Of a stretch of DNA of 64,000 bases, positions 10,401-59,521 are shown in pieces. The notes under the pieces are model-generated. The model worked only from the letters and a program-made list of their open reading frames with translations, was not told the DNA's origin and searched no databases. The stretch is from contig SMSO01000032.1 of the NCBI GenBank assembly GCA_004764695.1, forward strand, positions 3,702,983-3,766,982. The letters are read 5' to 3'. This DNA is from Schizochytrium sp. TIO01. Taxonomy: Eukaryota; Sar; Bigyra; Thraustochytrida; Thraustochytriidae. The translations under genes were made by a program, and so were the position numbers. The first letter of the stretch is position 1, and each line of letters opens with the position of its first letter.

Positions 10401-10583
10401 TCCATTTCCCTTCTTGGTTAGGCAGTCAGCAGTTAGTAGGCAACAGGCTGTGCAGGCTGACCAAGGTCATGCCAAGTTGAAACCATACTTTTATTGCTCA
10501 TAGACCATCCTGGCATCAGCCTTACAGATATCATAGAAGGCCGTGCTGGGACGCGCAGCCAGCGACGAACGCTGCAAGAGTAT
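7489..10583. other. Non-coding spacer, 3.1 kb
   Basis: A/T-rich sequence with many stops in all frames. I see no protein motif. It includes a perfect 20-bp tandem duplication at 9991-10030. The last few hundred bases (10100-10580) include short open frames and several CAG-ending pyrimidine stretches, so an upstream non-coding exon or short first coding exon of the kinase gene is possible. Confidence 0.5.
9991..10030. repeat. Perfect 2 x 20-bp tandem duplication
   Basis: The 20-mer CATAATCCAATTAGTAATGA occurs twice in direct succession with no mismatch, about 550 bp upstream of the kinase start. It looks like a recent slippage or duplication event. No function is evident. Confidence 0.95.
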
Positions 10584-13500
10584 ATGAGTGCACTGCGAGA
10601 AACCCAAGAGCCTGAGATGGCCACAATTCCAAGAGAAAAGGTCACCATCGATTATCCAGAACATATCCTCGGTGAAGGCAGCTTTGGACAAGTCCTATCA
10701 GGTGTGCTGCAAGGGGAAGATGGTGAGAATATATCAGTTGCTATTAAGAGAGTTCGTCAAAAACGTGATCAACTTCAATTTGCTGAGCAAAATGCATTGA
10801 TTGAAGAGGCCCAAAGTTGGCATGGGTTAAATCACAAAAACATCGTCTGCCTGCTTGGGACATGCATCATTCAGAACCGGTTTCATTTGGTCATGGACAA
10901 GTGCGACTTATCTCTAGATAAGTTACTGTATGAAACTAAACCGAGTGGCACATGCACTATCCTTGGACTAGATGATAAAGAGGCCATTTTGCTCGGTGTC
11001 ATACGAGGGCTCTGCTATCTCCATAGTCAAAATGTAATTCATCGTGATCTGAAACCTGCCAATGTGCTCCTCAGTCAAGACCTGGGCCTGATAAAGCTCG
11101 CAGACTTTCGTCTTGCAGTCAGGACAAGCCCGAATGCAACTTTGGCAGAGACTATTTCTGTGGCTGGAACCCCTGTGTACATGGCTCCAGAAGTACTTCA
11201 AGCTCCTGCTCGTTGGACAACAAAGGCAGACATATATTCTCTAGGCGTGATCATGTGGGAGATATACCACGAGGAGACGCCATACGGGCGTTCCTTGCAT
11301 CATTTAGAAGCGCTTAAAAACAGGGTTCTCGCAGGCGAGCGTCCTGTAATATCTGATCAAGTACCTGTCAAACTCTGGATAGTCCGCACCATGGAATCTT
11401 GTTGGGACGAGGACCCTGCAAACAGACCAGCTGCTGAGGAGGCTCTAACGAGGTTGCAGTCTTCAGGTGCTGAACGCCGATCGAGCCTCCTCATTCGTGG
11501 ACTTGTGACTGCATTTATACAGAGAAACCACCGCACACCTGCAAAACAAAATGTGAATGTCGAAACGGTGCGGAGTCTAGTTCGAGACCTGTCTGATCGA
11601 GGCGAGAGGAGTGATCTGTTACGAACACTACAAATCTTGCACAATGCTTTGGAAGCTGAATTCAAAACTGCTGAGACCGCAGATGGTCATGATGACCTGA
11701 GGAGAGCTGTTCGTGAACGGGATATTCTTGTTCATTTGCAGAGAATCGTAAAGGAAGAGGAACACGATGCCGACGTGGTTTCTGAAGCACTTTGGATCTT
11801 TCATTTCGCCTTTCATCGTGAAGCTACCTGTGAGTATACTAAGGCTGCAATGAAGACCTATGGTCTAGGTCCTGTACTAATTAGTATTATGCAAGAGCAA
11901 GCGAGCGAATCAGAAGTGCAGGCTGCAGCATGTGCTTGTGTCAGAACCCTCGCGTACAGAAACACAGAAAGCGCGATTACTCTAGCAATAGATTTAAATG
12001 TGGGCGCAAAGATTGTGGCCGCCACACGCGCGCATCGAACGAATGCAGACGTGCAAAAAGAAGCATGTGCGGCATTGCAAGATCTTGCTTCAAATGATCG
12101 CAACAGAGACATCCTGGGACAAGATTTGAATGTGGGCGCAGAGATTGTGGCCGCCATGAGCACACATCGAACCAATGCAATCGTGCAAGAAAAAGCATGT
12201 GGAGCATTGATGAAACTTGCTCTCAACACTCGCAACAAAGAGATCCTGGGACATGATTTGAATGTGGGCGCAGAGATTGTGGCCGCCATGAGCGCACATC
12301 GAATGAATGCAGGCGTGCAAGAAAAAGCATGTGGGGCATTGAGGAGGCTTGCTCTCAACACTCGCAACCAAGAGATCCTGGGACATGATTTGAATGTGGG
12401 CGCAGAGATTGTGGCCGCCATGAGCACACATCGAATGAATGCAGGCGTGCAAGAAAAATCATGTGGGGCATTGAGGAATCTTTCTGTGAACACTCGCAAC
12501 AAAGAGATCCTTGGCCAAGATTTGAATGTGGGCGCAGAGATTGTGGCCGCCATGAGCGCACATGGAGCAAATGCAGGCGTGCAAGAAAAAGCATGTGGGG
12601 TACTCAGGAATCTTGCTTTAAATGATCGCAACGCAGAGATCCTTGGCCAAGATTTGAATGTGGGCGCAGAGATTGTGGCCGCCATGAGCGCACATGGAGC
12701 AAATGCAGGCGTGCAAGAAAAAGCATGTGGGGCATTAAGGAATCTTGCTTCAAATGATCGCAACGCAGAGATCCTTGGCCAAGATTTGAATGTGGGCGCA
12801 GAGATTGTGGCCGCCATGAGCACACATCGAACGAATGTTGACGTGCAAGAGCAAGCATGTGGGGCATTGAGGAATCTTGCTTCAAATGATCGCAACGCAG
12901 AGATCCTTGGCCAAGATTTGAATGTGGGCGCAGAGATTGTGGCCGCCATGAGCACACATCGAACGAATGTTGACGTGCAAGAGCAAGCATGTGGGGCATT
13001 GAGGAATCTTGCTTCAAATGATCGCAACGCAGAGATCCTTGGCCAAGATTTGAATGTGGGCGCAGAGATTGTGGCCGCCATGAGCGCACATGGAGCAAAT
13101 GCAGGCGTGCAAGAAAAAGCATGTGGGGCATTGAGGAGGCTTGCTCTCAACACTCGCAACGCAGAGATCCTGGGCCAAGATTTGAATGTGGGCACAGAGA
13201 TTGTGGCTGCCATGAGCGCACATCGAACGAATGCAGACGTGCAAGAACAAGCATGTGCGGCATTGACGAATCTTTCTGTCAACAATCGCAACGCAGAGAT
13301 CCTGGGCCAAGATTTGAATGTTGGCCCAGAGATTGTGGCCGCCATGAGCACACATCGAACGAATGCAGGCGTGCAAGAACAAGCATGTTGGGCATTGTCG
13401 GATCTTACCTACAATAATGATCGCAACGCAGAGATCCTTGGCCAAGATTTGAGTGTGGGCGCAGAGATTGTGGCTGCCATGAGCGCACATCGAACGAATG

Positions 13501-15560
13501 CAGGCGTGCAAGAACAAGCATGTGGGGCATTGACGAATCTTTCTGTCAACACTCGCAACAAAGAGATCCTTGGCCAAGATTTGAGTGTTGGCGCAGAGAT
13601 TGTGGCTGCCATGAGCGCACATCGAACGAATGCAGACGTGCAAGAAAACGCATGTGGGGCATTGTGGAATCTTGCTTCAAATGATCGCAACGCAGAGATC
13701 CTGGGCCAAGATTTGAATGTGGGCGCAGAGATTGTGGCCGCCATGAGCGCACATGGAGCAAATGCAGGCGTGCAAGAAAAAGCATGTGGGGCACTCAGGA
13801 ATCTTGCTTTAAATGATCGCAACGCAGAGATCCTGGGCCAAGATTTGAATGTGGGCGCAGAGATTGTGGCCGCCATGAGCACACATCGAACGAATGTTGA
13901 CGTGCAAGAGCAAGCATGTCGGGCATTGTGGAATCTTTCTGTCAACACTCGCAACGCAGAGATCCTTGGCCAAGATTTGAATGTGGCCGCAGAGGTTGTG
14001 GCCGCCATGAGCACACATCGAACGAATGTAGGCGTGCAAGAACAAGCATGTGGGGCATTGTTTAATCTTGCTTCCAATGATCGCAACAAAGAGATCCTGG
14101 GCCAAGATTTGAATGTGGGCGCAGAAATTGTGGCCGCCATGAGCACGCATCGAACGAATGCAGACGTGCAAGAAAGAGCATGTTGGGTATTGTGGAATCT
14201 TGCTCTCAACAATCGCAACAAAGAGATCCTGGGCCAAGATTTGAATGCGGGCCCAGAGATTGTGGCCGCCATGTGCGCGCATCCAACGAATGCAGACGTG
14301 CAAGTAAACGCATGTGGGGCATTGCGGAATCTTGCTTTAAATGATCGCAACTGTAAGGTCTTGGGCCAAGATTTGAATGTGGGCGCAAAGATTGTGGCCA
14401 CCATGCGCGCGCATCTAGCGAGTGCAGACGTGCAAAAACAAGCATGTAGTGCACTAAGTAAGCTGACTTCAAATGATCGCAACTGTGAAATCTTTGGACA
14501 AGATTTGCATGTGGGCCCAGAGATTGTGGCCGCCATGTGTGCGCATCTAACGAATGCAGACGTGCAAAAAGAAGCATGTGGGGTATTGTGCAATCTTACT
14601 GTCAATAACAATCGCAACAAAGAGATCCTGGGCCAAGATTTGAATGTGGGCGCAGAGATTGTGGCGGCCATGCGTGCACACCTAACGAATGCAGACGTGC
14701 AAGAGCAAGCATGTGCGGCATTGTGGAGTCTTTCTTTCAACAATTTCAACTATGAGATATTGGGACAAGACTTGAATGTGGGCGTAGAGATTGTGGCCGC
14801 CATGCGCGCACATCGAACTAATGCAGGCGTGCAAGAGCAAGCATGTGCGGCATTGTGGAGTCTTTCTCTTGATAACAATCGCAACTGTGAGATCTTGGGA
14901 CAGGGTTTGAATGTGGGCACAGAGATTGCGGCGGCCATGTGTGCGCATCTAACGAATGCAGACGTGCAAAAAAGAGCATGTGTCGCATTGTGGAGTCTTG
15001 CTCGCAACAATCGCAACTGTGAGATCTTGGGACAAGGTTTAAATGTGGGCGCAGATATTGCGGCGGCCATGCGCACGCATCTAACGAATGCAGATGTGCA
15101 AAATCAAGCATGTAGGGTACTAAGTAAGCTTGCTTCAAATGATCGTAACTGTGAGATCTTGGGACAAGATTTGCATGTGGGCCCAGAGATTGTGGCCGCC
15201 ATGTGCGCGCATTTAACGAATGCAGATGTGCAAGAAAATGCATGTAGGGCATTAAGTAAGCTTGCTTCAAATGATCGCAACTGTGAGATCCTGGGACAAG
15301 ATTTGAATGTGAGTGCAGAGATTGTGGCGGCCATGCGGGCGCATCTAACGAATGCAGACGTGCAAAAGGAAGCATGTGGGGCATTGTGGGGTCTTGCTCG
15401 CAATAATCGCAACAAAGAGCTTATGGGACAAGATTTGAATGTGGGCGCAGAGATTATGGTGGCCATGCGCGCGCATCTAACGAATGCAAGCGTGCAAATA
15501 CAAGGATCTGGGGCATTGTGGAGTCTTACTTCAAATGATCGCAACTGTGAGATTATGTGA
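10584..15560 (+). CDS. Protein kinase fused to tandem ARM-like repeats, truncated by stop
   Basis: A 1658-residue reading frame counted from the ATG at 10584. The kinase domain spans about residues 15-310: glycine loop GEGSFGQV at 30-37, VAIK lysine at 55, HRDLKPANV from 153, DFR (not DFG) at 174-176, APE at 201-203 and DIYSLGVIMWE. The style is TKL/NEK-like Ser/Thr kinase. From 11991 onward come 27 complete 44- or 45-residue repeats with the consensus DLNVGAEIVAAM..H..NA.VQE.ACGAL.NL..N.RN.EILGQ, resembling armadillo/HEAT helices. The frame ends at a TGA, followed immediately by TAA, where other repeats read Gly-Gln. The same frame then continues for 73 codons to a natural-looking end. The start is uncertain because an upstream exon is possible. 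Function is inferred as a signalling scaffold kinase; the substrate is unknown. Confidence 0.88.
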   Translation: MSALRETQEPEMATIPREKVTIDYPEHILGEGSFGQVLSGVLQGEDGENISVAIKRVRQKRDQLQFAEQNALIEEAQSWHGLNHKNIVCLLGTCIIQNRFHLVMDKCDLSLDKLLYETKPSGTCTILGLDDKEAILLGVIRGLCYLHSQNVIHRDLKPANVLLSQDLGLIKLADFRLAVRTSPNATLAETISVAGTPVYMAPEVLQAPARWTTKADIYSLGVIMWEIYHEETPYGRSLHHLEALKNRVLAGERPVISDQVPVKLWIVRTMESCWDEDPANRPAAEEALTRLQSSGAERRSSLLIRGLVTAFIQRNHRTPAKQNVNVETVRSLVRDLSDRGERSDLLRTLQILHNALEAEFKTAETADGHDDLRRAVRERDILVHLQRIVKEEEHDADVVSEALWIFHFAFHREATCEYTKAAMKTYGLGPVLISIMQEQASESEVQAAACACVRTLAYRNTESAITLAIDLNVGAKIVAATRAHRTNADVQKEACAALQDLASNDRNRDILGQDLNVGAEIVAAMSTHRTNAIVQEKACGALMKLALNTRNKEILGHDLNVGAEIVAAMSAHRMNAGVQEKACGALRRLALNTRNQEILGHDLNVGAEIVAAMSTHRMNAGVQEKSCGALRNLSVNTRNKEILGQDLNVGAEIVAAMSAHGANAGVQEKACGVLRNLALNDRNAEILGQDLNVGAEIVAAMSAHGANAGVQEKACGALRNLASNDRNAEILGQDLNVGAEIVAAMSTHRTNVDVQEQACGALRNLASNDRNAEILGQDLNVGAEIVAAMSTHRTNVDVQEQACGALRNLASNDRNAEILGQDLNVGAEIVAAMSAHGANAGVQEKACGALRRLALNTRNAEILGQDLNVGTEIVAAMSAHRTNADVQEQACAALTNLSVNNRNAEILGQDLNVGPEIVAAMSTHRTNAGVQEQACWALSDLTYNNDRNAEILGQDLSVGAEIVAAMSAHRTNAGVQEQACGALTNLSVNTRNKEILGQDLSVGAEIVAAMSAHRTNADVQENACGALWNLASNDRNAEILGQDLNVGAEIVAAMSAHGANAGVQEKACGALRNLALNDRNAEILGQDLNVGAEIVAAMSTHRTNVDVQEQACRALWNLSVNTRNAEILGQDLNVAAEVVAAMSTHRTNVGVQEQACGALFNLASNDRNKEILGQDLNVGAEIVAAMSTHRTNADVQERACWVLWNLALNNRNKEILGQDLNAGPEIVAAMCAHPTNADVQVNACGALRNLALNDRNCKVLGQDLNVGAKIVATMRAHLASADVQKQACSALSKLTSNDRNCEIFGQDLHVGPEIVAAMCAHLTNADVQKEACGVLCNLTVNNNRNKEILGQDLNVGAEIVAAMRAHLTNADVQEQACAALWSLSFNNFNYEILGQDLNVGVEIVAAMRAHRTNAGVQEQACAALWSLSLDNNRNCEILGQGLNVGTEIAAAMCAHLTNADVQKRACVALWSLARNNRNCEILGQGLNVGADIAAAMRTHLTNADVQNQACRVLSKLASNDRNCEILGQDLHVGPEIVAAMCAHLTNADVQENACRALSKLASNDRNCEILGQDLNVSAEIVAAMRAHLTNADVQKEACGALWGLARNNRNKELMGQDLNVGAEIMVAMRAHLTNASVQIQGSGALWSLTSNDRNCEIM

Positions 15561-15782
15561 TAAGATTTGAATGTGGGCGCAGAGATTGTGGCTGTCGTGC
15601 GTGCGCATCTAACGAGTGCACATGTGCAAGAAACTGCATGTGATACATTGCGTAATCTAGCTTGCAATCGTGAAGCCTTCCAGTTTCTTATCGATGCGGG
15701 TGCACGTGACGCTGTCTTGAACGCATATCGAAGATTTCCATCATCAAGAACTTGTCAGCGAGCTTTTGCAAAGCTACTTTAA
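11991..15782 (+). repeat. 28-copy coding tandem repeat, 132-bp unit
   Basis: Repeat starts fall at 11991, 12123, 12255 and so on every 132 bp, with three units of 135 bp (starting 13311, 14502 and 14769). The 28th starts at 15564 after the double stop. Units 7 (12783-12914) and 8 (12915-13046) are identical at nucleotide level. A two-unit block around 12651-12914 recurs almost unchanged at 13710-13973. Units 18-28 are more diverged and share an RAHLTNADVQ form instead of STHRTN. The regular spacing and identity show recent expansion by unequal crossing-over or slippage, mainly in the middle of the array. The minus strand is also open over much of the array, as a by-product of repetition. Confidence 0.95.
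15564..15782 (+). pseudogene. Detached C-terminal end of the ARM-repeat kinase
   Basis: Directly after TGA (15558-15560) and TAA (15561-15563), the same frame reads DLNVGAEIVAVVRAHL, a 28th repeat, then a non-repeat C-terminus ending in TCQRAFAKLL and a TAA at 15780. This is the expected natural end of the repeat protein. It has no ATG of its own in a suitable position, so it is either untranslated residue of a truncated gene or is reached by readthrough. The two stops each differ by one base from the Gly (GGA) and Gln (CAA) codons found at the same place in sister repeats. Confidence 0.7.
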
Positions 15783-29077: not shown

Positions 29078-30656
29078 AATTTAACTTATGCTTCCTTCTT
29101 CAGGTCGCCGAAACCTTCGCAGCTTGCGGTCTCTTCAATTCACACCCTCTGCCGTGAATGAAGAGTTTACGCTCTGATGTTGCCACTAGCGTTCCCACCA
29201 GCTAATCGAGCAACTAATCAGTCACTCACTTACGTAGCCAATCAATCAATTAACCGATCAATCTGCAATTGCTTGCAAGTCTAGCGCAAGCTTTCGGTCG
29301 TGCAGCGACAAGCGTTGTTCCAGTTGCAAATCTATTGCCTCTTATAAAATCAATCTTGTCAGTAGCATACCAACACTGGTACTAGTAGTCCACCTAAGTA
29401 AGTATTGTAATATGTGCGGTCTCGGAAGCGGACCTGAAACAAGCAATTAATTTCCAGGCACACGCAAGAAAAGAAAACAACTACTTCTCCTCCCAACAAA
29501 ACCTAATACCAGGCTGGTCAGCAAGCCAGCCTACAACCAAGCAACGCTGTTGAGGATCTACTTCAGAAGACCTCACAGCTGACCCAAGCACCGCTAATTG
29601 CGCTTTTTTGTTTCTAGCCAGTCAGTCAATTTGGTAAGTTTCACGAAGAAATTAAGAGTCTGGTAGCCTAACACGGATTAAAATGAATGACCCCAATTCC
29701 GCAATCGCAGCCACACCTGCAATGCACAACAGCTGCAAGGTTCAAAGGAGCAGCTAGTAAGAATAGCCAGCAAGTTAGGGCTCTGCAGCTTTTCGTGCTC
29801 TAGGTCCAAGCAATGCAGGCCTGATGTTGCCTCGATCTATTAAAGACCGTGGTCGCCTAAGACTCTGCTACTAGCGCCGATGGATTCCTGATAGATATCA
29901 GGATCAAAGCTCGCTTATCTTCTTGCCGCGCCGCGTGCAAGATCGAAGCCGGCCGGCACCCAGGCAGCCCAGCAAGCGAGATGACTCACGCAAGTTCTCG
30001 AGGTCTCAAGGTTCCTCGCTCGCCTTGTGCCAATCGCTTTCCTCGCAACAACTTGGCGACAGTTGAAGAGGGTTTATAAGAGAGATATAAAGGAGCTGAT
30101 TTGATTGATTGCTCCTCGATATCTCGCGACCGACGAGGGATCCTCGCCAGAAACTTTCGTCTCCGGGAAGTACCGGCAGTGGCTTTCTCAGCACTTCACA
30201 GGCCTTCTTGGCTCCTCGCTGCGCACGCGAGGCCCCAGCTTCGTGCTTTCTGGAGCGGAGTTCGCACCGCCTGAGCAGGTTTGCCTTCGCTGGCTCTGCA
30301 AAAGGGAAACAAAACAACGGGAAAATGAACGAACGAACGAATGAATGAATGAACCAACGAATGAACAAGCACAACAGCAGAGGATACCTACCAGCCAGCT
30401 CCACTCCACGTGCAAGCAACGGTGGTGCGCGAGCGGTTCTGATCCAAATTGCTGTTGATTCTCCCAAACCAAGCTCGTCTCAGCTTTTATCGCTGTTTGG
30501 ATGGGTGCTTGAATTGAGTTGGATGAATTGATTGATTCCTCGTGTTTTCATGTGCTGTTGTATTGCAATGATATGTACATTATAATTTAAGTTTAAAAGA
30601 AAAGAAAAAAGTTTTGTAAACGATAGCTTTAATCATCAATTGAGGGCACAGACAGA

Positions 30657-30951
30657 CAAACAAACAAACAAACAAACAAACAAACAAACAAACAAACAAA
30701 CAAACAAACAAACAAACAAACAAACAAACAAACAAACAAACAAACAAACAAACAAACAAACAAACAAACAAACAAACAAACAAACAAACAAACAAACAAA
30801 CAAACAAACAAACAAACAAACAAACAAACAAACAAACAAACAAACAAACAAACAAACAAACAAACAAACAAACAAACAAACAAACAAACAAACAAACAAA
30901 CAAACAAACAAACAAACAAACAAACAAACAAACAAACAAACAAACAAACAA
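30657..30951. repeat. Perfect (CAAA)n microsatellite, about 74 copies
   Basis: About 295 bp of uninterrupted CAAA tetranucleotide. Because the unit is 4 bp, every three units give the same four-residue cycle (QTNK on the plus strand, FVCL on the minus strand) without stops, so all the open frames there are artefacts. The length and perfection imply recent expansion and probable length polymorphism. Confidence 0.98.
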
Positions 30952-46196: not shown

Positions 46197-49100
46197 TTAT
46201 GAAATCTTAATTCCATTGATTGCCTCCACTATGTCCTCGAGGAATGCCTTTAAACCTTCAGGCTTACCCCTGAAAGGTATCTTTATCAATCTATGAAGTT
46301 GAGAAATTCTAGGCTGGACAATACATAGTGTGGAGGGTTTATCAATCTTTTCAATTATGATATTTTCCTGGTAAGCGACAAACTGGTCTGGGTCGAGATC
46401 CCAAAACATGCCGGCTATTTGGTTGAGTGTGGGACTTTGTGGGTGCATAGTTTGAACTTTATGCATTGCTTCTCTGTATCTTTTACGAAACTCTTGCACT
46501 CGAAGATGGCAACCTTGACAGTGTGATAAATAGTCAGATTGATATTGAATATCCAAAGCCTTGAAACATATGTCGCAAAAGAACATGCAGCTTGCATGGG
46601 TTTCACAGAAGTACTTGTGTTCATTTAATACCACCATTGCGGTGCAGCCGCCCTTTCGACACTGTCTCTGTGCTGATTTAATCCTTTTCTTGAGTCTGTC
46701 TTCTTTATCACCAAACAATTCATATTCCATCGAGTCCCTCTTTTTATTCACCCTAAATCTCTCAAATTCGATCGTCTCGATGGTTCCTTCCGCACACACT
46801 TTGCAAAACTGTGGCCCTTTATTTGCTGTGGAGCAATGGATGTAATAACAGCCATCTGAGTTACCGCTTCGCCTTGCCAGAAAAAGGGACGCATTCGGGT
46901 GTAAAGCATCGTCATTGGAGGAAACACACGCGTAACCTTCCTCTTCCTCTTCCTCCTTAGACGAAGGCACTGTTGTATTCTTTATATACGTAACTCGTAG
47001 TTCTTGCTTGCAATGGTGACAGTGAACACCTAATATTAATTGCTCCTCCGAGTGACTGCTATTTCTGTATTTATCAAAATCCGCGCTGGATACCTCCGGT
47101 TGTAAGCACAAAAGACATTTAAGATTTGGCAAAATAAGATTTTCTTGCGCAAAACAAAGGTTTTCGTGTGCGGGAGGTTCATTTTTTGACAAATGGCTAC
47201 GATCAATAGTAAAGCCGCAACGTTTTTGATTAGATTCATCACACAATGCACATGCTCGGAAAACTGCATATGGTAAACTTGCGAGCTGATGCACCAAAAG
47301 TTCAGGGCGAACGCCTCGGTATCTTTTTAGAGCTACAAAACAGGCAGGCTTCTTACAAACTGTGCAACTTATCCACCTGAAGTTCTCATCAAAATGCATT
47401 CCATGTTGGTCTTGCGTTGCATCTTCATCTTCTCTGAGTGAGCCATTTACTCCAGGTAGAAATACCACGTGTCTGTGGGCAGAGGAGTTTTCCTGGGTAT
47501 CAGACATGCTCCCCTCTTCACCCCCTTCTTTGTGTTCTTCATTTCCTTCACTTTCTAATTTCTCATCCTCATCTTCATCTTTGCCTTTGAGTTCAAGTTC
47601 ATCCTCGCTCTCGTTTTTATCGTCACTTTCCTCCTCCTCCTCTTCCTCCTCCTCCTCCTCCTCATCATCATCATCATCTTCTTCTTCTTCATCCTCATCA
47701 TCCTCATCATCCTCATCATCCTCATCATCCTCATCCTCATTTGCATCATTTTCGTCCTGATCTTCGCCATAATTTCCCCCCAACTCTTGGTATCCTTCAT
47801 CTTCACCATCACTATCTTCTGCTATGGCATTATTCAATTTAGCATTAGAAGACACCGCTTCATTTGCTTCACCTGGGTCCTGAGAAGAACTTATCGCAAT
47901 AGAGTTGGTTTCCGCTGTTGAATTTCCATCACCGATATTATGAGGCAATTCAAAAGCTGCAGAGTACGACGGAATTCTAGGATCAATACAAGGTCGATTT
48001 GAAGGGCAACGCCGTTCGTATCGCTCCTCGCCTTGTTCCATACTTTCCTCGCGGTCACTACCACCATCACCAGAATTAGCATCAAAATCATCAAATTGAT
48101 CATCACCATCATCATCATTATCGAAACTGTCGCCTGTCTTATCACTACAAGAAGTACTAACAGTATTAGCATTATCGGCAGTATCAGCATCAGCAACATC
48201 GTCAATAGCAGTGTTACTCTCTAGACTTCGTGACGCCGTGTCGGAATCTTGGTTGCTCAGGTCTTCATCTTCTTCACTAATATCGACATCAGTGGGAATG
48301 GCACACCTTGGGCAGGTGTAGATTCGATGGCCAACGATGGCTTCGATGAGGTCCTTACGAAAGTTGCCAAAAAAAAAGCTTCGTGCCACGCTTATCATCT
48401 GCTGCTTACTATCTGGGATGATCAATAGTTTGCGATGAAATTTTTGATGAGAACCACTTCCACCGATAAATGTCAAGATCTGGGCTTTCTTTTCTTCTTC
48501 AGTCCCACGTGGGGTGACCGTGGCTGTTCCATGTTTGATTTGCTTGTTCAAAATATCATAAACGCGCTCGAAATTCTTCTCATTCCGGACAACCCTTCCT
48601 TGAAACTGGGTGAGGGCGGTGGTTTTCATTGCTCTTGAGCGTAGCGCGATAGCTGCTAAAAGAAGAGGGAGATCAAATCCTCGAGCATGTTTGGAGACCA
48701 CTAAAAGCAGATTTGCTTCGCCATTTTCAAGAACATTTTTGGACTCTCGTTGCTCCAATGGGCAATCCTTGACTTTATCAAGCGGGCTTTGAAGTAAGTA
48801 TCTGCCTTCTCCAGTATCCACGATTATCTTTAAATACTGCTTACGAACGAGTTGACCATCGCCAATACAGACGTAGGTCATATCTCCATCAACCTTTTTC
48901 ATGTAGCTAGTAAACATACCGCCCCCATTGGGGTGGAAAAAGTCAAACGCCATTTGTTGAAAAGGGGAGCAATTTTCCACGTTTGCTGCAGTGACACCTG
49001 CAAGCATTCTTCGTAGGCCATTTAAGGTCCTATGCAGAGCATTACGGTTTGGGAAACTACAGATCGCATAGATAGGAGCAGTAGAATATAAAGCAGTATT

Positions 49101-50774
49101 ATAACTCTTCGCAGCCTCTGTACACTGAAAATCTTCTCCAGGAATCTGTTGAGCACGGAGAAGCACTTCATAATTGAGTTTCGCTAGTGCGGATAGAAAG
49201 TGTAGTAGACCTGTAGTTGGTTTTTCTCCACCTCCTACACAAGCAGGTCCAACAATTGGACGTATACCATCTCTATAGTATAAAACATCTGGTATTGACG
49301 AGTCGCCAGATTCCACAGAACGATTGAGCGCATATCCTGCTCGAAGCAACCCTCCAAAGATACTCCGAACTAGCCGTTTAAGGGAGCTTCGTAAGTCAAG
49401 TGTACCACTCAAATGCATCGACAAAGCAAATGCTGGTTCGACTTCGGACCGAAGTATTGTTGTGGTTTTCGTGTCATCACTACTTGCTACATCCGCCTCA
49501 TCACGAATTAATTTTGATCCGTGCCACATTCCCAACCAATGAAAAACGCCTCCTCCTGTAAATCGGTTTCGATTTTTCAGTGTTTGCCAAAGGCTTACAA
49601 TCAGCACAACTTCATGAATTTTACTCGGAGAATGACAACTCCATCCAAACTTTCCTGTGTTGATGTTTTCCTGGCATTTTGGAATGAGAGGTTGCCATCC
49701 GGCCCACCCACCAATGCAGCTCACGGTCCTTCCTAGAAACCAGGATATGAGGCAGTATGGTCGACTTCCGATTAAGACAGTGTCGTACAATGATGGATAA
49801 ACTTTACATAAGTCACAATCATTGCCGAAGAAAGTTTGATAAAGCTTTCGTGCAACAATTCTTATTTGTTGACGTCCTTGGAGGTCTGTGTACGCAATCA
49901 ACCCAGACATAAACGTGTGTATTATGAGAGTATCTAAGTCCTCCTCACTGTCAGGTAGGATTGCCCTGAAACCGGTTGCATTTTGAAACACAGATTGAAA
50001 TTTTTCGATTTTTTCTTCAATTTCCTCGCGTTCAGCTCCCATAAGCTTTTTTGTTATATTGGGAAGGCTCTGCAAGAGTGTCTCTGGTGGCTCTTTGCTA
50101 TAACCAAAATAAAGAGAGGACATCGTCAAATGCACTTTTCCATCGTTAGAGGTTCTGTATAAAGTAACGTCAGCATTGTCGTGTCGTAGCTGCTGGAAGA
50201 TTTTGTCTATTTCAGGGTCATCTGATTGCAAGTTTTCCACTAGAACCTTTTCTAACAGCTCAGCGGCTGTCAAAATTTGGCCTTGAAACTGCTGTCCAAA
50301 GCAATCCATCGGCACGGGCATTGACCCAATATCTTGCAAATACGCCGTAACGCATCCAATCAAGGTTTTGCCGGAGCCAGTGCCCAAATTCGCTTGAAGA
50401 CCTGGCTGAGTTGCCGCAAGCGGGAAAAGAGCAACCTTTGTTAGCTGCTCATCAGTGACACATCCATCGGAAGGCGTCTTGCCAGTCTGAATCTTCACCT
50501 CTCCACTGCTCAGTGCTGAGAAGACTTCTTTCTGTCCTGATCGGAATAAGTTTGAATTGCATTTTTCACGAACATAATCAGCAATGAGGCAGTGTATGCG
50601 ATCTTTGATTAATTCGCGAGATTCAATGTCTCTATGTATACGTTCGAAGAAATTCCCTTGCGGATCTTGCATTGCCTCCAAGTCCTGCACACTCAAAAGG
50701 ACTGTACCAACGTTCTCAGCGATACGTTCTGAGCTCATAGCATAAATTGGGACGGGATTGAGACTTTGCGACAT
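46197..50774 (-). CDS. Large SF2 helicase-like protein A with CxxC modules
   Basis: 1525 residues from an ATG at 50774. Superfamily 2 ATPase motifs appear in order: TQPGLQANLGTGSGKT (P-loop 131-137), LIRDEADVAS (DEAD 425-428), LSGTLDL (456-461), RGFDLP (698-703, motif V-like) and QGRVVRN (725-731). A GS..QKFH..L segment then leads to the first CPRC pair (821-824). An acidic low-complexity stretch (about residues 830-1110, with poly-Glu/Asp near 1005-1048) separates this from a C-terminal array of Cys/His pairs: CTVC, CLLC, CHHC, CKVC, CRKGGC, CETHASCMFFCDIC and CQGC. Possible roles are nucleic-acid unwinding or translocation with zinc-mediated binding. I do not recognise the family. Its paralogue lies head-to-head at 53034. 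The very long intronless frame argues for a functional gene. Confidence 0.85.
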   Translation of the reverse strand: MSQSLNPVPIYAMSSERIAENVGTVLLSVQDLEAMQDPQGNFFERIHRDIESRELIKDRIHCLIADYVREKCNSNLFRSGQKEVFSALSSGEVKIQTGKTPSDGCVTDEQLTKVALFPLAATQPGLQANLGTGSGKTLIGCVTAYLQDIGSMPVPMDCFGQQFQGQILTAAELLEKVLVENLQSDDPEIDKIFQQLRHDNADVTLYRTSNDGKVHLTMSSLYFGYSKEPPETLLQSLPNITKKLMGAEREEIEEKIEKFQSVFQNATGFRAILPDSEEDLDTLIIHTFMSGLIAYTDLQGRQQIRIVARKLYQTFFGNDCDLCKVYPSLYDTVLIGSRPYCLISWFLGRTVSCIGGWAGWQPLIPKCQENINTGKFGWSCHSPSKIHEVVLIVSLWQTLKNRNRFTGGGVFHWLGMWHGSKLIRDEADVASSDDTKTTTILRSEVEPAFALSMHLSGTLDLRSSLKRLVRSIFGGLLRAGYALNRSVESGDSSIPDVLYYRDGIRPIVGPACVGGGEKPTTGLLHFLSALAKLNYEVLLRAQQIPGEDFQCTEAAKSYNTALYSTAPIYAICSFPNRNALHRTLNGLRRMLAGVTAANVENCSPFQQMAFDFFHPNGGGMFTSYMKKVDGDMTYVCIGDGQLVRKQYLKIIVDTGEGRYLLQSPLDKVKDCPLEQRESKNVLENGEANLLLVVSKHARGFDLPLLLAAIALRSRAMKTTALTQFQGRVVRNEKNFERVYDILNKQIKHGTATVTPRGTEEEKKAQILTFIGGSGSHQKFHRKLLIIPDSKQQMISVARSFFFGNFRKDLIEAIVGHRIYTCPRCAIPTDVDISEEDEDLSNQDSDTASRSLESNTAIDDVADADTADNANTVSTSCSDKTGDSFDNDDDGDDQFDDFDANSGDGGSDREESMEQGEERYERRCPSNRPCIDPRIPSYSAAFELPHNIGDGNSTAETNSIAISSSQDPGEANEAVSSNAKLNNAIAEDSDGEDEGYQELGGNYGEDQDENDANEDEDDEDDEDDEDDEDEEEEDDDDDEEEEEEEEEEEESDDKNESEDELELKGKDEDEDEKLESEGNEEHKEGGEEGSMSDTQENSSAHRHVVFLPGVNGSLREDEDATQDQHGMHFDENFRWISCTVCKKPACFVALKRYRGVRPELLVHQLASLPYAVFRACALCDESNQKRCGFTIDRSHLSKNEPPAHENLCFAQENLILPNLKCLLCLQPEVSSADFDKYRNSSHSEEQLILGVHCHHCKQELRVTYIKNTTVPSSKEEEEEEGYACVSSNDDALHPNASLFLARRSGNSDGCYYIHCSTANKGPQFCKVCAEGTIETIEFERFRVNKKRDSMEYELFGDKEDRLKKRIKSAQRQCRKGGCTAMVVLNEHKYFCETHASCMFFCDICFKALDIQYQSDYLSHCQGCHLRVQEFRKRYREAMHKVQTMHPQSPTLNQIAGMFWDLDPDQFVAYQENIIIEKIDKPSTLCIVQPRISQLHRLIKIPFRGKPEGLKAFLEDIVEAINGIKIS

Positions 50775-51066
50775 TGTTCCAATTGTTGAATTGAGCCTAT
50801 TCCTTGGTTTATTTCTTGAAATTTGATGCCAGCGAGTTGTGGGTTTGCTTGCGACTTTGTTAAAGCATGTGAATTCGGTTGCAATAGACTCTCACTTGTT
50901 GAAGAAAAGGCTTTGATTTGAGGGACACTGTGACAGTTGTAAACGTTGACTTGTTCTGGGTAGGTTTATCTGATAAACGCCTCTAACCTCGCATTAAATT
51001 AAAGCATGGGAGAATTGTATCTGACGAGCCGCTTATCACATGTTGAAGTTGTACGCAGTGCCAATG

Positions 51067-51109
<43 letters not shown>

Positions 51110-53033
51110 TGTGAATACCTATGCAGAAAGATAAACTTTTCTCAAATTTAGGATAATTACTAATGGACCTTTAAAACGTATGAATAAAAGCACTTGATTT
51201 CCCGTGTTCCTCCTTCTTTCTCCTTGTTGTCCAAAAGAGAGCCAAATCCTGACCAAACTAATTTATTATTATCATTTTTTTACTTTTCAAGTAAATTTAA
51301 ATTTAAAAAAAGAAAAAGTTTTAATCTTTAAAATCGCCGCTTGTTTCCTCTGGCTAAACTTACTCTTGGTCCTCACTCGGCAAAACATGATTACACGAAT
51401 CGAGTCAAACCAAGTCAAAACTTTTTAAAGGCAGAACAGATAGCTCCGCCACAATATTCACTTAGACATCTGGAACGGCAATACGTGAAAACCAGAGAAG
51501 TTTTTTACTGAGCTGAGGGTCAGAATCACAATCTTTGATGTGCGTTGATGTGTGACGCTCCTGCAATTCAGTTCCGCAGTCGACCGTAAATTCAAGGTTT
51601 GCGCTGGCCACGAAGTTTTCCGAGGTGGATCTTGCTCCTGGCATTCATTCACGTCAATTGCTGGTTAAAGAGATAAATTTAAGAAACCCCTGCAGCTAAT
51701 TTGCGCGGGCCTGTGTTTTTGAAGAAAGATCGAAGTAGATCAAACTTGAAAGCAAAGATCTCCAAGACGTCTCTATTATAAGGTTCGTCTTCGGCGCCAA
51801 TACAATTTAGTGTCTACGCCTTCGTTAGCATTGCTTTGGTTGTATTCTCAGGAAAGTTGGAACTACATGGCGAGAGAGCTAATTGGAGTCCGTTTTTCCC
51901 AGGTGATACTGCCTTCAACATCCACGTGTCTGGCGCTTCTACCAAGTCTTCATAGCCAGAGAAGCCGCGATCAATTTCCACTCTTTGACCTGGATAGAAT
52001 AAGAGATCAAGCCCTCGTGAACGTCAAGAGCTGGAGTGGCGGTCAAGTCCAAGAAGTTAGGAATTGAAAGCAGCCTGAAGCATACGCATTCAGGAGAACT
52101 GATTTGGGTGCAGTCTGCATTGGCGGTCGGCCGAGGAATGGCTTAATTTGAGCTGCTCAGACGTCTCTAAAGTAGGCAAAGCCTGGTCTCTCCCTGTAGA
52201 TGTGGTGTGCCTGTCCACGTTTTCATCGATTCGCTCTCTAGGTCCGCAAATCGCCAATTCTAAACGCCCGAGCTTACAGAGGCAGGAGTCTCCTCGAGGG
52301 TTTCAACAATCTTGGCTTCATCTTGAAGCGGCGCAGCACTTTGTCCGTCTAAGACCCATGCACAGCTAGCTCTACAGCCGTGACAAAGCGTGACGGCTGC
52401 GTCTAAAACAAAATATCGTTCCAAGCTCACGTGTATCGTTTTATCCATATTTATTATTAGGATTTATAAAACTAACAGACAAAATCTCACTTTGCGAGCC
52501 AAATAAAGCCTGCTGGAGCAGAGGCGCCTCTGGCTGGACCCATCTCTCTCCCTTCTGCTGGCACTCGTTTCTCCCATCCTTTAGGACTGCCAAGGCATGT
52601 GACTACGTCTAGCAGGTGCGATCTTTCAGGTACGATTAGAGATCCCTCGGTTCAGTTCTTCCAAGCCCCATCCACGTTTTCGTTTTGCTCTCAATCTTCA
52701 AATACTCTTTTTTTAAAATTAAATTTGTACATAGCATAAAATAAGAAACAACATAAAATCCCACTCTGAGGAAAAAGGCGCCTACGGCCCTTTCTGTGGT
52801 ACAGGGAGCCTCCCCTTTGCTTCTACACCTGCACATATCATATCGATAATGTTGTGAGCAACCCCTTTTCATATTAAACGCATACTACACTTACACAGAA
52901 AGAGGTCAGCAATTCCTTTACTGCTGCTTCGAGTGGGTAAACGACGAAAATTTTGCCAGTCAAAAGAGCGAGATTGAATTCATATTGCAAGAGGCGGGAA
53001 GCCTTAAATAAGCAGCATACCAGCTTCTTGAAG
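50775..53033. other. Shared upstream region of the two helicase-like genes
   Basis: 2.26 kb between divergent starts. It contains a (TA)n(GA)n compound microsatellite at 51069-51109, A/T-rich parts, and a GC-balanced middle (51780-52400) with short frames but no recognisable protein. A bidirectional promoter could lie here, but the distance is large enough for two separate ones. Confidence 0.45.
51069..51109. repeat. (TA)n(GA)n compound microsatellite
   Basis: About ten TA units run into about nine GA units, 300 bp upstream of the minus-strand helicase-like gene. Confidence 0.9.
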
Positions 53034-56000
53034 ATGCCGCATAATGCAGGTGCGACCGCGGGAGTGAGTCTTGCCAAGTTGAAGGTTCATACGTCTCAAG
53101 ATCTCCAAAATGTATCTCATGTTAGTATCACTAACAACGAAGTTTACACAGAGGCTCTTAAGAATTGTAGATCAATAATTCGGCATGAGGAAATACACGA
53201 TATGATGAATAATACAAGCAAACAGTTTAAAGTTAATCATTCATCCGGAGTGGGTCTGGATCCTGCCGTGTTTTGTACAAACGAGACATTCATAAACCTG
53301 AAAGAATTTTTATGGGAACATTTCGATGAGCACGTTTTCCCTTCATTAAGAGAATGTCAACAAGAGTGCCTTCGTGCTTTGAGGTCCGGAGTAATCTTAC
53401 ACGAGGTAGGTGAAAATGGCGGCAACAAGACATATAAGAATCGTGACTACGGTCCACTTATGGTCACGCAACCGGGCGCACAACATAAAGCTGGACCAGG
53501 TCAGGGGAAAACGATATCCGCCTTTCTTGCGGCACTCCTTCCATTAAGCTCGATCCCAGTAGAGGGTTCTGAATATGGCTACAAGGCTGGAACTCTCGGT
53601 ACATTTATGAAAGGGGTTCTCACCAGACAGAGCATCTCGAAGAATCCTGGCGTTGAACATGTTCTGAATTGCATTCGTCACAATAACAGGAAGGTTCTGA
53701 TATACACAACTAAGGATGGCCAAACTAGGTTGATGGAATCTTCCGTCTTATTTGGATACGGCTCTGAACCAGCAGACAATTTCTGCAGTTTACTTCCTGA
53801 TGTATGGAAACTGTTCAAAGTTTATACAAACGGAGAAACCAGAATATTCACGCAGAGAAACCTATTGATAGAAAATTTAAAGCGATATGTACCCTATTTG
53901 CAAGGAAGACCAAAAAGGTATTGCAGTTCCCACGCCAACTAAACCAAAGAGACAAACACAAATTTGTTTTGGAAACTTTGTTGAGTGGATCGATAGCATA
54001 TCGGGAAAATGACTGTCAGTCTGTACACATTGAACATCTCGGATATGACCTGATCAAGGCTATATTCAAGAAAGAATTTCAAATCTGTAAAATGTGGACA
54101 TCGCTTTGTGAGCCTGTCCTTATTGGACGGCGTTTGTATATGCCACTTATGTGGATTCTAGCTCGAACGGTTGTATGGAGCGGTGGAGTGAATACATGGA
54201 GGGTAATGGCACCAATCGAACAATATGATAATTTTGACTGCAGTATTGAAGCAGAAATCCAAAATTGTGTTTTACTTATTGGATGTTGGGGAACAATGCG
54301 GAGCCAAAGCAAAGGTTCCAAAAAAAAGAATAAAACTGAGAATGGGAAGAATCTCCCTAATTGGATTCAGCATGCAAACTTTGGTATGCTCATCCGCGAT
54401 GAAGCTCATGTGGCATCTGACGAAACCACCAAGACCGAAATATTTCTGAAAGAACATGTTGAGATACAAATACCAGCTGCAATTCATTTCAGCAGTACTC
54501 TTGATATTAACAAAACAAAGATGCATTCCGCTCGTAGCACCTCGTCTGCACGCAAACCAAACGGTTTCCCGATCTCTGACTCGGTCAAAAATAGCAATAA
54601 TCAGCCTGCAACTACTTCTTTGCCACATTTTATTATGTACGACCCCAAAAAGCTAGATATATACGCGAATAGACAAGTACAACATAGAGTCTATGAAGCA
54701 GCTGCGGTGTTCCGACAGGTATTAAGTATTTTTTATTTAATAATTGAGGAAAATATGCGTCTTGCAGGCTATAGAATAGGTAAGAAGAAGTATTCGAATC
54801 TTACGAAGCGCGAAAGGAAGTACCATTTCAGCCTCTGTCGGTCTTTTCCACTTGTTGGACTTTGCTCATTCGCAACATCTCAAGATCTCAACAACTTCAA
54901 GGAACAATATATCGTTCACACAAAAAAGTCTTCTTATAACGAGAAGGACTCCTTTTTGGACGCCTGGATACACCATGCATGCAATCGTGACGGCAGAGGG
55001 TTTTTCTCAGGGTACTTTCATTCTAAATCAAGAAAGTATAGAGTTTTCAAAAAGAACCGCCCCTTGTTGATTCAAAAGATAGTCCCAATAATTTCGACTG
55101 CAGATACAACTGAAATTTACGACTTAAAATCAGGATGTTTCAAAAAGATTCCAGCAACTGATGTACATCTCCTGCTAAACGAAGGTAAGGCCAACTTTCT
55201 GATGGTCCTTCATAAACACCTCCAATGCCTCAATGTACCTCATATGCAGTATGCCATTATACTGAGATCTGAAGGTACCTCAAAACAAACATTTCTACAA
55301 GCTCAAGGACGTATATCACGCAACCCAATAGACCAAGCAGCTATAAGAAGTGCTGCTCTACGAGGGTGCTCCATAGTTGCAAAATCATCTTCCGACAAGA
55401 TCAAACCTCCTTCAGAAAGAATTAAAAGGGACATCGAGCGAGTTTGTAGAGGCACTGGAAATGAACAACGTATGCACACAAAGTTCTTTGTACAGCCAGA
55501 CACAAATTCGCATATCATTCTTGCTGCCCAGGCACTTTTTGAGAATGGATTCAGTATGAACCAAATCCAAGACGACCTAGCAAACACGTTTGAGTGTTGC
55601 TCTAAATGTGGAAAGCCCTTGAAACTTTGTCATGTCGATTCGCTGGGCTATTCAACCCCTCTTCTATGCAAAGCTGATGATCCATGCTTAGACATATGTC
55701 TGCCTAGCATAACAGATTGTTATCCCGCAGCCACTGATTTGATAGGATCTGTTTCCCATGTGGACTGCCTTCCAGTGCACAACAGTGCTTTGCAAGGTTG
55801 TTCTTCATCCAACGGGCCCGTAATAAAAGTTGAGAGCCATGCTGATTCTGAACCAGGAGGACCGCGATCTATTCATGCACCTCCCCGTCAGGCTGTTAGG
55901 GGTAATATCTCGGGAGCTTCAGTGCATCCATTGAAGGCGGAACACAAACACCGAAAAAGTAACTCCCATCACAGCATCTCCCCCAACAAGCGCAAGCACA

Positions 56001-56971
56001 TAAGGGAAAGACACGCCAAATTAAGTTTGTCTTGTCAAACAACAAGTGGCATTCCGGCACGCAATTGTAAAATTATTCAAAAGCCAACTGTGCATGCTAA
56101 TACTCGGCTATCTGAGGCGAACCAACAAGTAACAAGCTGTTCCCGTCAAACAAAAAATCGTAATTTAAAAATGAGTCCTCGATTATCAACGCATCTAGGC
56201 AGTGCTCGAACCCTCAATAAAGCTGATTCGCCATGCATATTGGGCCGTTGCTATATATGCAATAAGGACTGTGTTCCAGTTTCTAGGGAATCCCTCGACT
56301 TGGAGGAAGATCGTTTCAAACTTAACTATAAGCTTTTCAAGGATAAGACAGGCAAAATCGTTGCTGAAGAGAAGCTAGAGAGTGGTCGACTAGTCGGTTA
56401 CAAAGTCCATGAAATGCACCATTCCAAAAAAGGTTCCTCCTTGGTTGTACCGGTGGAAACTTCGAAATCGCAATACCCCAAAGACCTACGCTGCTATTTT
56501 TGCGCGGAAAGCGAACCTTTGTCTGAAATTCTTCTGGAAGAGATTGTAAGATGCAATGAGGAAATAGAACTGAAGTGCCCAATGGGCTTTAAGTGTGCCA
56601 ATTGCTTAAAGGAACTTCGTGTTGGTATATATCTCCATGGTGAATTTGTCAAATTGCCCGGTAATGGAGCAGATTTGGAGACAACTGCTTTGGTGCCATC
56701 ATGCTATTCACGTGGCACATGTGCCAGCGGTTCGAAGAAAAGAAGTTACCGCCAGATGTCTGGGTCGAACGATTCCTTTTCCATTTCAAAAGGGGAAATT
56801 TTTAATAATTACATTCGAGAAGGTCGAGATCCGCAGAATAAATATTGTTTGTTGCTATTGAGGCCATTTCATAAAAACGAAATATGTATGGCTTGTGATC
56901 AATCAAACCGTACACGTATCTTTGTTTCAGATGCAGACAGCAGTCGAAAACGATTAAAAAATATACTATAA
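53034..56971 (+). CDS. Large SF2 helicase-like protein B, frame break near 53.9 kb
   Basis: A diverged paralogue of the gene at 46197-50774. The ATG at 53034 opens a frame ending at 53942; the rest continues in another frame to 56971. Removing 53889-53926 (GTACCC...TTGCAG, 38 nt) joins them into about 1299 residues. A 32-nt alternative (GTATTG...AAAG) also works. Motifs: TQPGAQHKAGPGQGKT (P-loop codons 53493-53513), RDEAHVAS (54398-54409 encode DEAH), FSSTLDI and QGRISRN (from 55304). Further CxxC pairs follow (CSKC, CYIC, CYFC, CANC, CMAC). The P-loop GPGQGKT and the DEAH box differ from copy A. The protein is shorter at the C-terminus, and a basic Ser/His/Lys-rich linker replaces copy A's acidic tract. 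Codons look A/T-rich. The family is unknown. Confidence 0.78.
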
Positions 56972-56999: not shown

Positions 57000-58043
57000 T
57001 TAGCTTTTTGAATTTTGATGAACAGGGTAGAATTCGGGTTTAATCTTGACAGTCTTGGTGTGATACACGCGTTGAAATCGAGAAACTTTCTGCTGCACTT
57101 TCCGACCTGGTCGAGAAGGCTTGGTACCTGCGAAAATACGTAATGCTGTCGATTTGCTAGCCTGCTTTGGTTGCGCCTCCGCCTTTGAAATTACTTCCGC
57201 AATTGCTCTTTCTAAATCATCCGCTGAAGGAGTCAAATTTTGTGATGCATGGGGCGGAAGTGCGTACAGCAATGCTCTTGCTTGCTCATAGTGCTGCAAA
57301 GCTTTCTCCATGTGTCGGGTATGCTCCATCTGTGCAGCGAAACTGAAGTGAGCTGCGATTAATAAGGCAGGAACTTGATACGACGCGTCAATATTTTGTA
57401 CCAAGCTCGGTCGTCTTGAAGTCTCATCTGCAAGGGCCCGAGTAGGAACCTCCTCATTCTGAGCAAGGTTTCTTGCAGCTTGTAATGCTTTCAGCGCATG
57501 ATGTGCAGCACGATTGTGTTGGTGCATTTCGGAAAGGATTGCACATAAGTTCAAGTGGGTGCCGATTGGTTTACGTCGCAATTTGAGCTCTGCGTGCAAA
57601 CCTCTTTGGGCTATAGTTAGTGAGCAGTGGAGCTGTCGCTGGTGTCTATGTACACAACTTGAGTTTGCACAAACGATGCTCTGTAGCTCCCAAAATACGG
57701 TTTTTGGAAAAGTAGATGATGCTGCCATGAGCAAGTTTTCCACGCGCATGATGAGCCTTAGTGCGTTGGTGAGATTTTCAGGTGACGGAGTTTCAAGCAT
57801 ACGTACAACATATGCGTTTCCCGCCAGCAGAAGATCTCGTCGCTGTCTCACTTGATCTTCAGGTGAAAGAATAGGCAGAAGCAGGGTGAGTTGAGTGAAC
57901 TTTTGTGCGAAGGCTTGTTCGTATTGATTTGCACTTTCGAGACGCAGTACGTCCGCCTGTAAGTCTTCCAGCGTTGATGCAGAAACCATTGTTGTAGAAG
58001 CACACACAAGATCTCGCGTGTCTTCTTCCGTGGTGGACTCCAT
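57000..58043 (-). CDS. Helical (TPR-like) repeat protein, 347 aa
   Basis: The ATG at 58043 is preferred; the frame stays open upstream to about 58157 without another ATG. The protein is all-helical and Ala/Leu/His-rich. Stretches such as THLNLCAILSEMHQHNRAA and HFSFAAQMEHTRHMEKALQH have TPR-like spacing of small and aromatic residues, suggesting a solenoid of several helical pairs. The C-terminus is basic (KPSRPGRKVQQKVSRFQRVY). No membrane segment or signal peptide is visible. Its stop lies only 28 bp from the stop of the convergent helicase-like gene B, so their 3' ends must overlap if both are transcribed past their stops. The exact family is unknown. Confidence 0.68.
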   Translation of the reverse strand: MESTTEEDTRDLVCASTTMVSASTLEDLQADVLRLESANQYEQAFAQKFTQLTLLLPILSPEDQVRQRRDLLLAGNAYVVRMLETPSPENLTNALRLIMRVENLLMAASSTFPKTVFWELQSIVCANSSCVHRHQRQLHCSLTIAQRGLHAELKLRRKPIGTHLNLCAILSEMHQHNRAAHHALKALQAARNLAQNEEVPTRALADETSRRPSLVQNIDASYQVPALLIAAHFSFAAQMEHTRHMEKALQHYEQARALLYALPPHASQNLTPSADDLERAIAEVISKAEAQPKQASKSTALRIFAGTKPSRPGRKVQQKVSRFQRVYHTKTVKIKPEFYPVHQNSKS

Positions 58044-59521
58044 TTCTATATCGCTGCCTGCGCCTACTGGATAAAGCAAGTGCCCTTCTGCGAGCGGCAG
58101 CGTTGGTGGTCCTTTTGCCACAGCGGAAAGGTGACAGACCTCCCCGCCTCTAGGCAAGCCTCCGGGCCGTTCTTGGAGCCTTTGAGCGGTTTGCTGAGTA
58201 CATGCTAGCTATAGCGCTTCATTTCCTACGCATATAAAATTGAATGTGCTGTTAGGACTTGCAGGATCAAACCGTGAACGGATCTTTTTTAGATTCGTGA
58301 AAAAAAAAAAAGAGTAAAAAAGAATATCCCTGCCTAATTTCATGTAGCAATTAGCTACACAAATTAACTGAATTCGTCACAAGAAGAAAAAAACCAGAGT
58401 CACATGCACGCAGGCTGTTAAAGACAGTTGAGAAGAGTCCATAGGGTTCTGTGCCTCAGGTCGCTCTCGTTCGTAGGTCATCGACTGCTACCATGTAAAT
58501 AGTTCTTCCAATCTGGTACTTGGTTGTTCAAAACTCAGGTGTCCTTTAGCCTGTTGTGCGCTAAAGTAAGTGAATTGCATGAGTCATTTACTCATGTTTC
58601 CTTATATATAGCGATTATCAATTCTTGGAGATGCATTTGCTAGCTATTTGAATTCATAGGTTTGAGATTTCATTTCCTCTTGTTTGAGTTATTTCCATAG
58701 TTTAGTTCGCAAGGTTTTGATACGAGTTCAGATGTTCCTTTATTAATAAACTCGATTTGTCATTGGTGCGCTAGGAACGCATAGACTCACTTTCATCTTT
58801 AGCTGACGCACTAAATTGTAGCTACAAATTTTATAAATGTTCGAAGCCCGTGGATGGAAAAGTTTTTTTGGCTGTCACACAGAGCCTCTTAGGCCTCAAA
58901 GAAACATTTTGCGAACCTAGCTCAATGGTTTAGTATCCTGAAGAAAACCTTATGAATTGATGTACTTTATGGCTTATGTATTACAAACAAACCTCGCATC
59001 TTGCGACAATGTATAGTCAGATTTCTCAGAATCTTGACTACTGCCCTACTTTGTTATATTCCGGCGCACATTCCATTCTGTGAATGTGAGCTGAGAACTG
59101 GAAATTCGTCCGCTGAGTAGACGCAAGAGGAGTATTGCATCCTCCTGCCTGGATCCAGGGAATATGCTAGTCCAAATGAAAGGAGCTGTAAAAAGACCAA
59201 AAAGGGTGACGGATTGCAGAGACTACGCTATCATATAGTTAGTATAATGACATTGTGCGAAACACAATAAATTGTTTATTTGGCAAATTTAAAGAATTAA
59301 TCAGAGGTACATGTTAGAAAATGTCGAAGAATTATAATTGTACAAAAGTCTGCGGGTCTCATGCAGTAGATGGAACTGAATTTGTGCAAGTTGGTGTTTA
59401 TAGCACACTGATAATTGTCGATCTTAACTGCATGCAAGTGAAATACATATATATATGTCGTAAACAGGTCCACAACAAAGAAGACAAGGCATGAGTTTCT
59501 ACATCTGAACATCTGAAAATT
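58044..59521. other. Spacer, 1.5 kb
   Basis: A/T-rich non-coding DNA with no recognised gene between two minus-strand genes. A 71-codon minus-strand frame at 59297-59512 is hydrophobic/Cys-rich but lacks support. TATATATA at about 59445-59456 is a plain A/T run. Confidence 0.45.

Follow-up and report, generated by a model that had tools for sequence, protein, structure and literature searches.

What kind of protein do two large, neighbouring genes of the thraustochytrid Schizochytrium sp. TIO01 specify, and how did the pair arise? The genes, here called p1 and p2, lie in the window, the whole stretch of 64,000 nt that was analysed, which corresponds to C31:3702983–3766982 of a host assembly of 64,063,054 bases in 37 contigs. 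An earlier sequence-only reading had taken them for a diverged, inverted duplicate pair of SF2 helicase-like genes with CxxC modules, in opposite orientation and 2.26 kb apart, and had been unable to assign them to a named family.

The gene pair and its surroundings

The orientation and the distance are confirmed, and the two genes are arranged head to head:

46197..50774, minus strand: gene p1, 1525 aa, a single intact frame
50775..53033, no strand: spacer between the p1 and p2 starts, 2259 bp, without a wholly contained ORF of at least 100 aa
53034..56971, plus strand: gene p2, with a change of reading frame near window position 53,820

The spacer length presupposes the ATG at 53034 as the p2 start, which is also where P0001, a public protein of 1312 aa, begins. 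In the window, p2 is divided between two overlapping ORFs, one specifying the N-terminus (52953–53942) and the other the remainder (53804–56971). P0001 reads p2 intact through the point of change at about 53,820, tracking the first frame up to window position 53819 and the second frame from one residue on; apart from this point, it differs from the p2 of the window at a single residue (955, I/V). As P0001 is intact, a copy of p2 without the break exists in public data, and the frame break most probably reflects an error of the assembly or an allelic difference. An intron at this position was also considered and is less likely, since P0001 switches frame there within one residue.

The left neighbour of the pair is an MFS transporter, while the ORF to the right (57000–58157) has no significant Pfam match. 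Pfam matches were obtained for six of the 12 other ORFs scanned in the window, all to families of cellular type, and include a Na/H exchanger, a kinase with armadillo repeats, a PTEN-type phosphatase, a Na/Ca exchanger and a mitochondrial carrier. Judged by these families, the gene content of the window is eukaryotic. The kinase ORF (nt 10,494–15,560, plus strand) contains a 132-bp tandem repeat (nt 11,990–15,663; 27.8 copies, 85% matches) that is armadillo-like (Pfam ARM_LRRK2/Arm), and a near-perfect ACAA repeat of 76 copies is found at nt 30,648–30,951.

Relationship of p1 and p2

BLASTP alignment of p1 with the two p2 frames gave 150 bits (2e-40, 621 columns) and, for the N-terminal part, 77 bits (1e-18), with about 24% identity across the full alignment. 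These values and the head-to-head arrangement support the proposal of an inverted duplicate pair. The shared blocks sit in the same order in both proteins, and the block list drawn up by the earlier reading stands except in AN.L(M/V)V..KH, where p1 has L at the position given as (M/V). When p1, its core and the larger of the p2 frames were searched against the 64 Mb genome, p1 and p2 were the only relatives returned. Four other rows matched p1 (E 1e-5 to 4e-4, query residues 954–1157) and were rejected as low-complexity, because they fall in or beside the acidic tract of p1 and are absent when the core or the C-terminus alone is the query. Strongly diverged, head-to-head neighbours of this kind fit an old inverted local duplication.

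Motif layout and cysteine modules

The following features were located in the two genes:

50364..50378, minus strand: p1 motif I, GSGKT, residues 133–137
49785..50312, minus strand: p1 extra region in RecA1, between motif I and the presumed motif Ia, with putative limits
49491..49502, minus strand: p1 motif II, DEAD, residues 425–428
48582..48608, minus strand: p1 motif VI, QFQGRVVRN, residues 723–731
48303..48314, minus strand: p1 CxxC right behind the core, CPRC, residues 821–824
47385..48272, minus strand: p1 acidic linker, residues 835–1130, net charge −100, including a triplet repeat at 47629–47749
46992..47366, minus strand: p1 distal CxxC array to CHHCKQELRV, residues 1137–1261, a weak match to p2
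46509..46805, minus strand: p1 CxxC pairs without a clear p2 partner, residues 1324–1422
53499..53513, plus strand: p2 motif I, GQGKT, residue 156
54398..54409, plus strand: p2 motif II, DEAH, residue 456
55298..55324, plus strand: p2 motif VI, QAQGRISRN, residue 756
55598..55609, plus strand: p2 CxxC right behind the core, CSKC, residue 856
56249..56623, plus strand: p2 distal CxxC array to CANCLKELRV

The distance between motifs I and II is 292 residues for p1 and 300 for p2. In the genome's other helicase matches (n = 54, with some genes fetched twice) the median is 107, and every value but that of L067 (307) falls within 93–171. By this comparison, both proteins have some 190 additional residues at this place. 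The distance from motif II to motif VI (301 residues in p1, 303 in p2) exceeds the median of 25 others (186), but four of these span 298–573 residues, so that the spacing is long yet within range. In motif V, the G and D of p1 are absent from p2, and with this alteration p2 may be impaired. The post-core linkers also differ, that of p1 being strongly acidic (net −100 over 296 residues) and that of p2 slightly basic (+12 over 201 residues).

CxxC modules are present C-terminal to the core in both proteins, as had been claimed. The pair right behind the core (p1 residue 821, p2 residue 856) is firmly aligned, its score being reached by none of 500 shuffles. The alignment of the distal arrays (CLLC...CHHCKQELRV with CYFC...CANCLKELRV) is weak, 27 of 500 shuffles scoring equally high, so of the aligned cysteine pairs described earlier, the core-adjacent one holds and those ending in ELRV do so less securely. 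Partnered pairs after the core-adjacent one begin 316–431 residues later in p1 and 217–332 in p2. There are nine CxxC pairs in p1, of which those at 1175, 1324, 1400 and 1419 in the C-terminal part, and that at 320 in the core, lack a clear p2 partner; a p2-specific CxxC occurs at 1285.

Family and database searches

Searches of the Pfam, NCBIfam, PHROG and PADLOC profile libraries returned no significant family match for p1 or p2, in agreement with the view that no named family could be assigned. The best PHROG row (E 0.0087) is located in the acidic tract. Neither protein matched the NCBIfam RadD model (NF053632) at E 1 or the XPB and other helicase models of Pfam and NCBIfam, and the PADLOC models of anti-phage defence gave an empty result for both.

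A collection of 5.8 billion proteins, in which the best 5,397 to 7,987 candidates by word sharing were scored, returned nothing with whole p1 or the p1 core as query, and P0001 as the sole match to an alignment of the pair (A3). As p1 itself was not returned, the collection covers the organism poorly, and absence from it is weak evidence of orphan status. With the p1 core as the only query, nothing was accepted from prokaryote genomes, and the two plasmid matches, both type I restriction genes, were not significant (E 0.2). A literature search on thraustochytrid and stramenopile helicases, zinc ribbons and RadD, with subscription journals mostly outside its scope, found no title or abstract on the pair among the matches listed. 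AlphaFold models had a mean pLDDT of 35 (three sequences, 841 aa) or 38 (two sequences, 275 aa); predictions at this level are unusable and count neither for nor against two RecA folds.

Placement among SF2 helicases

Membership of SF2 was assessed by aligning a two-row p1/p2 profile of each half to single helicases of the same genome, with column-shuffled profiles as controls. Only targets with a recognisable motif were counted (26 of 30 for motif VI, 44 of 63 for motifs I and II), and L068, the match of which was not open, was dropped before counting. With the second half, 13 of 26 targets had motif VI in register, as did 22 of 37 when pieces of equal length were used (the other 15, L011 among them, were out of register); in six shuffled queries any one column was in register in at most 1 of 26. 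The second-half scores with the 26 targets overlap those of the controls (real best 23.2, shuffled best 22.4), whereas the register does not. With the first half, motif I was in register in 20 and motif II in 9 of 44 targets, some of which are the same gene twice, compared with at most 2 and 3 of 44, respectively, in five shuffled queries. The best first-half score was 30.9 (DEAD-box targets L025 and L027), that of the five shuffled queries at most 22.3. That both halves of p1 and p2 are SF2-helicase-like, as first proposed, is well supported by these counts. Tests of this kind against the helicases of a protein's own genome may offer a way to place a helicase that is invisible to Pfam.

The type of SF2 helicase is indicated mainly by the second half. 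Among the 37 targets of equal length, the highest score was obtained with the XPB-like L013 (26.8), followed by the RadD-like L010 (26.6) and the DEAD-box protein L022 (23.1). With 100 column shuffles, the values were 27.1 against at most 19.4 for L010 and 26.7 against at most 18.7 for L013; unrelated 300-aa pieces (n = 13) reached at most 18.6 against the second-half profile, and the reversed query gave 11.3 with L010 and 19.7 with L013. A second XPB-like gene, L011, scored 18.8 and was out of register with the second half. We take L013 and L011 to be XPB-like from the look of their motifs; these two helicases of one genome are 45–47% identical. L010 (G000:C24:4785221-4788694), encoded in a eukaryotic genome, is a helicase that resembles RadD and ResIII and carries cysteine pairs after its core. 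It matches the RadD model at 1.3e-29 with 103 bits (the model cut-off being 720) and Pfam ResIII at 1e-29, and its PDB matches include 7clg (3.3e-22) and RadD 6jde (1.2e-21).

When the second-half profile was compared with the PDB, the top row was again 7clg, with motifs V–VI aligned (E 0.16). The other rows, out of eight in total, were two of LGP2 (E 0.33), one 'RNA helicase' and four of outer surface protein A, and as the latter half are noise, the E-values (0.16 or worse) are weak. The whole-core profile (A2) returned nothing from the PDB, and the first-half profile (A7) returned noise. The full-core profile was also compared with group profiles of the DEAD-box and SNF2 types, built from the loci with pieces above 250 aa (21 of 25 and 18 of 19, respectively). 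The DEAD-box group gave a score of 42.3, from the Q-motif and motif I only (at most 31.2 in 30 shuffles; HHalign probability 42%), and the SNF2 group 23.8 (shuffles at most 23.2). The first half gives its top scores with the P-loop regions of DEAD-box proteins and does not favour ResIII, which leaves the subgroup only partly settled. A ResIII/RadD/XPB leaning of the pair is moderately supported, and the earlier placement 'outside known SF2 families' was too strong, since the second half points to the XPB/RadD type.

Origin and function of the pair

The explanation preferred here, to which we give a probability of about 60%, is that a single ancestral SF2 motor of ResIII/RadD/XPB leaning gave rise to p1 and p2 by inverted local duplication long ago, and that the copies then diverged. 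ATP would be bound and hydrolysed between two RecA-like domains, and the motor would move on a nucleic-acid duplex. The shared RecA1 insertion of about 190 residues and the CxxC modules, as putative zinc-binding elements, could select the substrate, as the zinc fingers of RadD and RecQ have been suggested to do. The duplication would have placed the genes head to head on either side of a single intergenic region, from which they may be co-regulated, and the copies would have specialised since, in the charge of the linker (−100 in p1, +12 in p2) and in a p2 motif V without G and D. The most likely role would be that of a genome-maintenance or chromatin/RNA-handling motor, and the pair is apparently restricted to its lineage.

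Large DNA viruses carry SF2 helicases, and derivation of p1 and p2 from a virus or mobile element, kept or decaying in the host chromosome, would be compatible with the frame change of p2 in the assembly, with the presence of two copies only, adjacent to each other, and with the failure to find relatives beyond the pair and P0001. However, that failure extends to viral contigs (where the scans need short exact peptide matches and have limited reach) and, with p1 and p2 as queries, to phages; the Pfam-matched ORFs of the window, six of 12 scanned, are of cellular type, and P0001 is intact. A viral or element origin is accorded a low probability, and within the reach of these searches the suggestion of an element-derived system found no support. 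The frame change is also one of the features that would be expected if the helicase fold had been kept and the motor lost, giving a scaffold pair or leaving p2 as a decaying copy, as are the enlarged motif spacing and the absence from p2 motif V of the G and D of p1. Both proteins nevertheless retain intact motifs I, II and VI, and P0001 is unbroken with only one other differing residue, making loss of the motor unlikely. A pair for defence or nucleic-acid sensing of the RIG-I type, in which one copy senses and the other regulates, is the least probable of the alternatives. It would account for an SF2 core with C-terminal CxxC pairs, for the differing linker charges and for the strong divergence, and two LGP2 rows and one 'RNA helicase' appear among the eight weak PDB rows. 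The LGP2 match is not significant (E 0.33), though, the best scores were obtained with XPB- and RadD-like targets, Pfam finds neither a CARD nor a nuclease domain, and PADLOC returned no match, leaving the proposed antiviral function likewise without support.

Codon use does not decide between a host and a viral origin. Pieces of p1 and p2 show correlations of 0.71–0.80 and a GC3 of 0.38–0.41, enclosed by the values of 63 helicase ORFs of the genome (0.49–0.95; GC3 0.37–0.73), but as L071 and L072, which lie on small contigs, are also within range, codon use cannot tell host from virus genes. These two helicases are SNF2-like and gave only low scores against p1 and p2, which argues against a viral origin. 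L071 (G000:C1), L072 (G000:C2) and a third SNF2-like helicase, L069 (G000:C31:5.756 Mb), are mutually 41–48% identical; the contigs of the first two are small (289 and 275 kb), while L069 lies within a contig of 9 Mb. Contigs C1 and C2 might be large-virus or episome DNA. According to PMC12911909, A. limacinum hosts one episomal and one integrated mirusvirus.

A further possibility, which we hold to be improbable, goes beyond the duplicated motor: p1 and p2 could represent an undescribed, RadD-like clade of eukaryotic SF2 proteins and form a two-protein, head-to-head system, whose two motors, alike in the core and unlike in linker charge, would act jointly on foreign or damaged nucleic acid in the lineage. 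Should the preferred explanation of a duplicated SF2 motor be correct, the pair would be a divergent, apparently lineage-restricted SF2 branch in a eukaryote, with a large shared insertion and cysteine modules, and would raise the question of whether orphan helicase pairs of this kind work in genome maintenance or in defence.

Comparison with known systems

Among the systems that p1 and p2 resemble, the RIG-I-like receptors are represented by LGP2, which combines an SF2 core with a C-terminal cysteine module. This arrangement is the point of likeness, and the match is weak (E 0.33); the extra region of p1 and p2 lies in RecA1 between motifs I and II, a position not known for the receptors. PDB entry 7clg ('Putative helicase'), which we take to be the restriction enzyme SauUSI, heads the second-half rows, but at an E-value of 0.16, and no nuclease domain was found in p1 or p2. 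The likeness to XPB/Rad25 consists in the second half being in register with L013, the top of the 37 targets, and the difference in its being out of register with L011 and in the lack of an XPB model match.

RadD (YejH) is a bacterial SF2 protein of DNA repair. According to PMC9049331, its RecA domains, two in number, are succeeded by a pair of zinc fingers; among solved structures, this layout is the nearest to that proposed for p1 and p2. As the RadD model is unmatched, p1 and p2 are not claimed, on profile grounds, as members of this family. They are further unlike RadD in their long charged linker, in distal cysteines far from the core, in being encoded by paired genes and in the stretch of roughly 190 residues added between motifs I and II, as measured against the other helicases of the genome. 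A possible likeness to RadD, in which two C4 zinc fingers come directly after RecA2, lies in the putative zinc modules behind the core, of which a single CxxC pair stands right behind it in both p1 and p2. Their second half scores best with L013 and the RadD-like L010.
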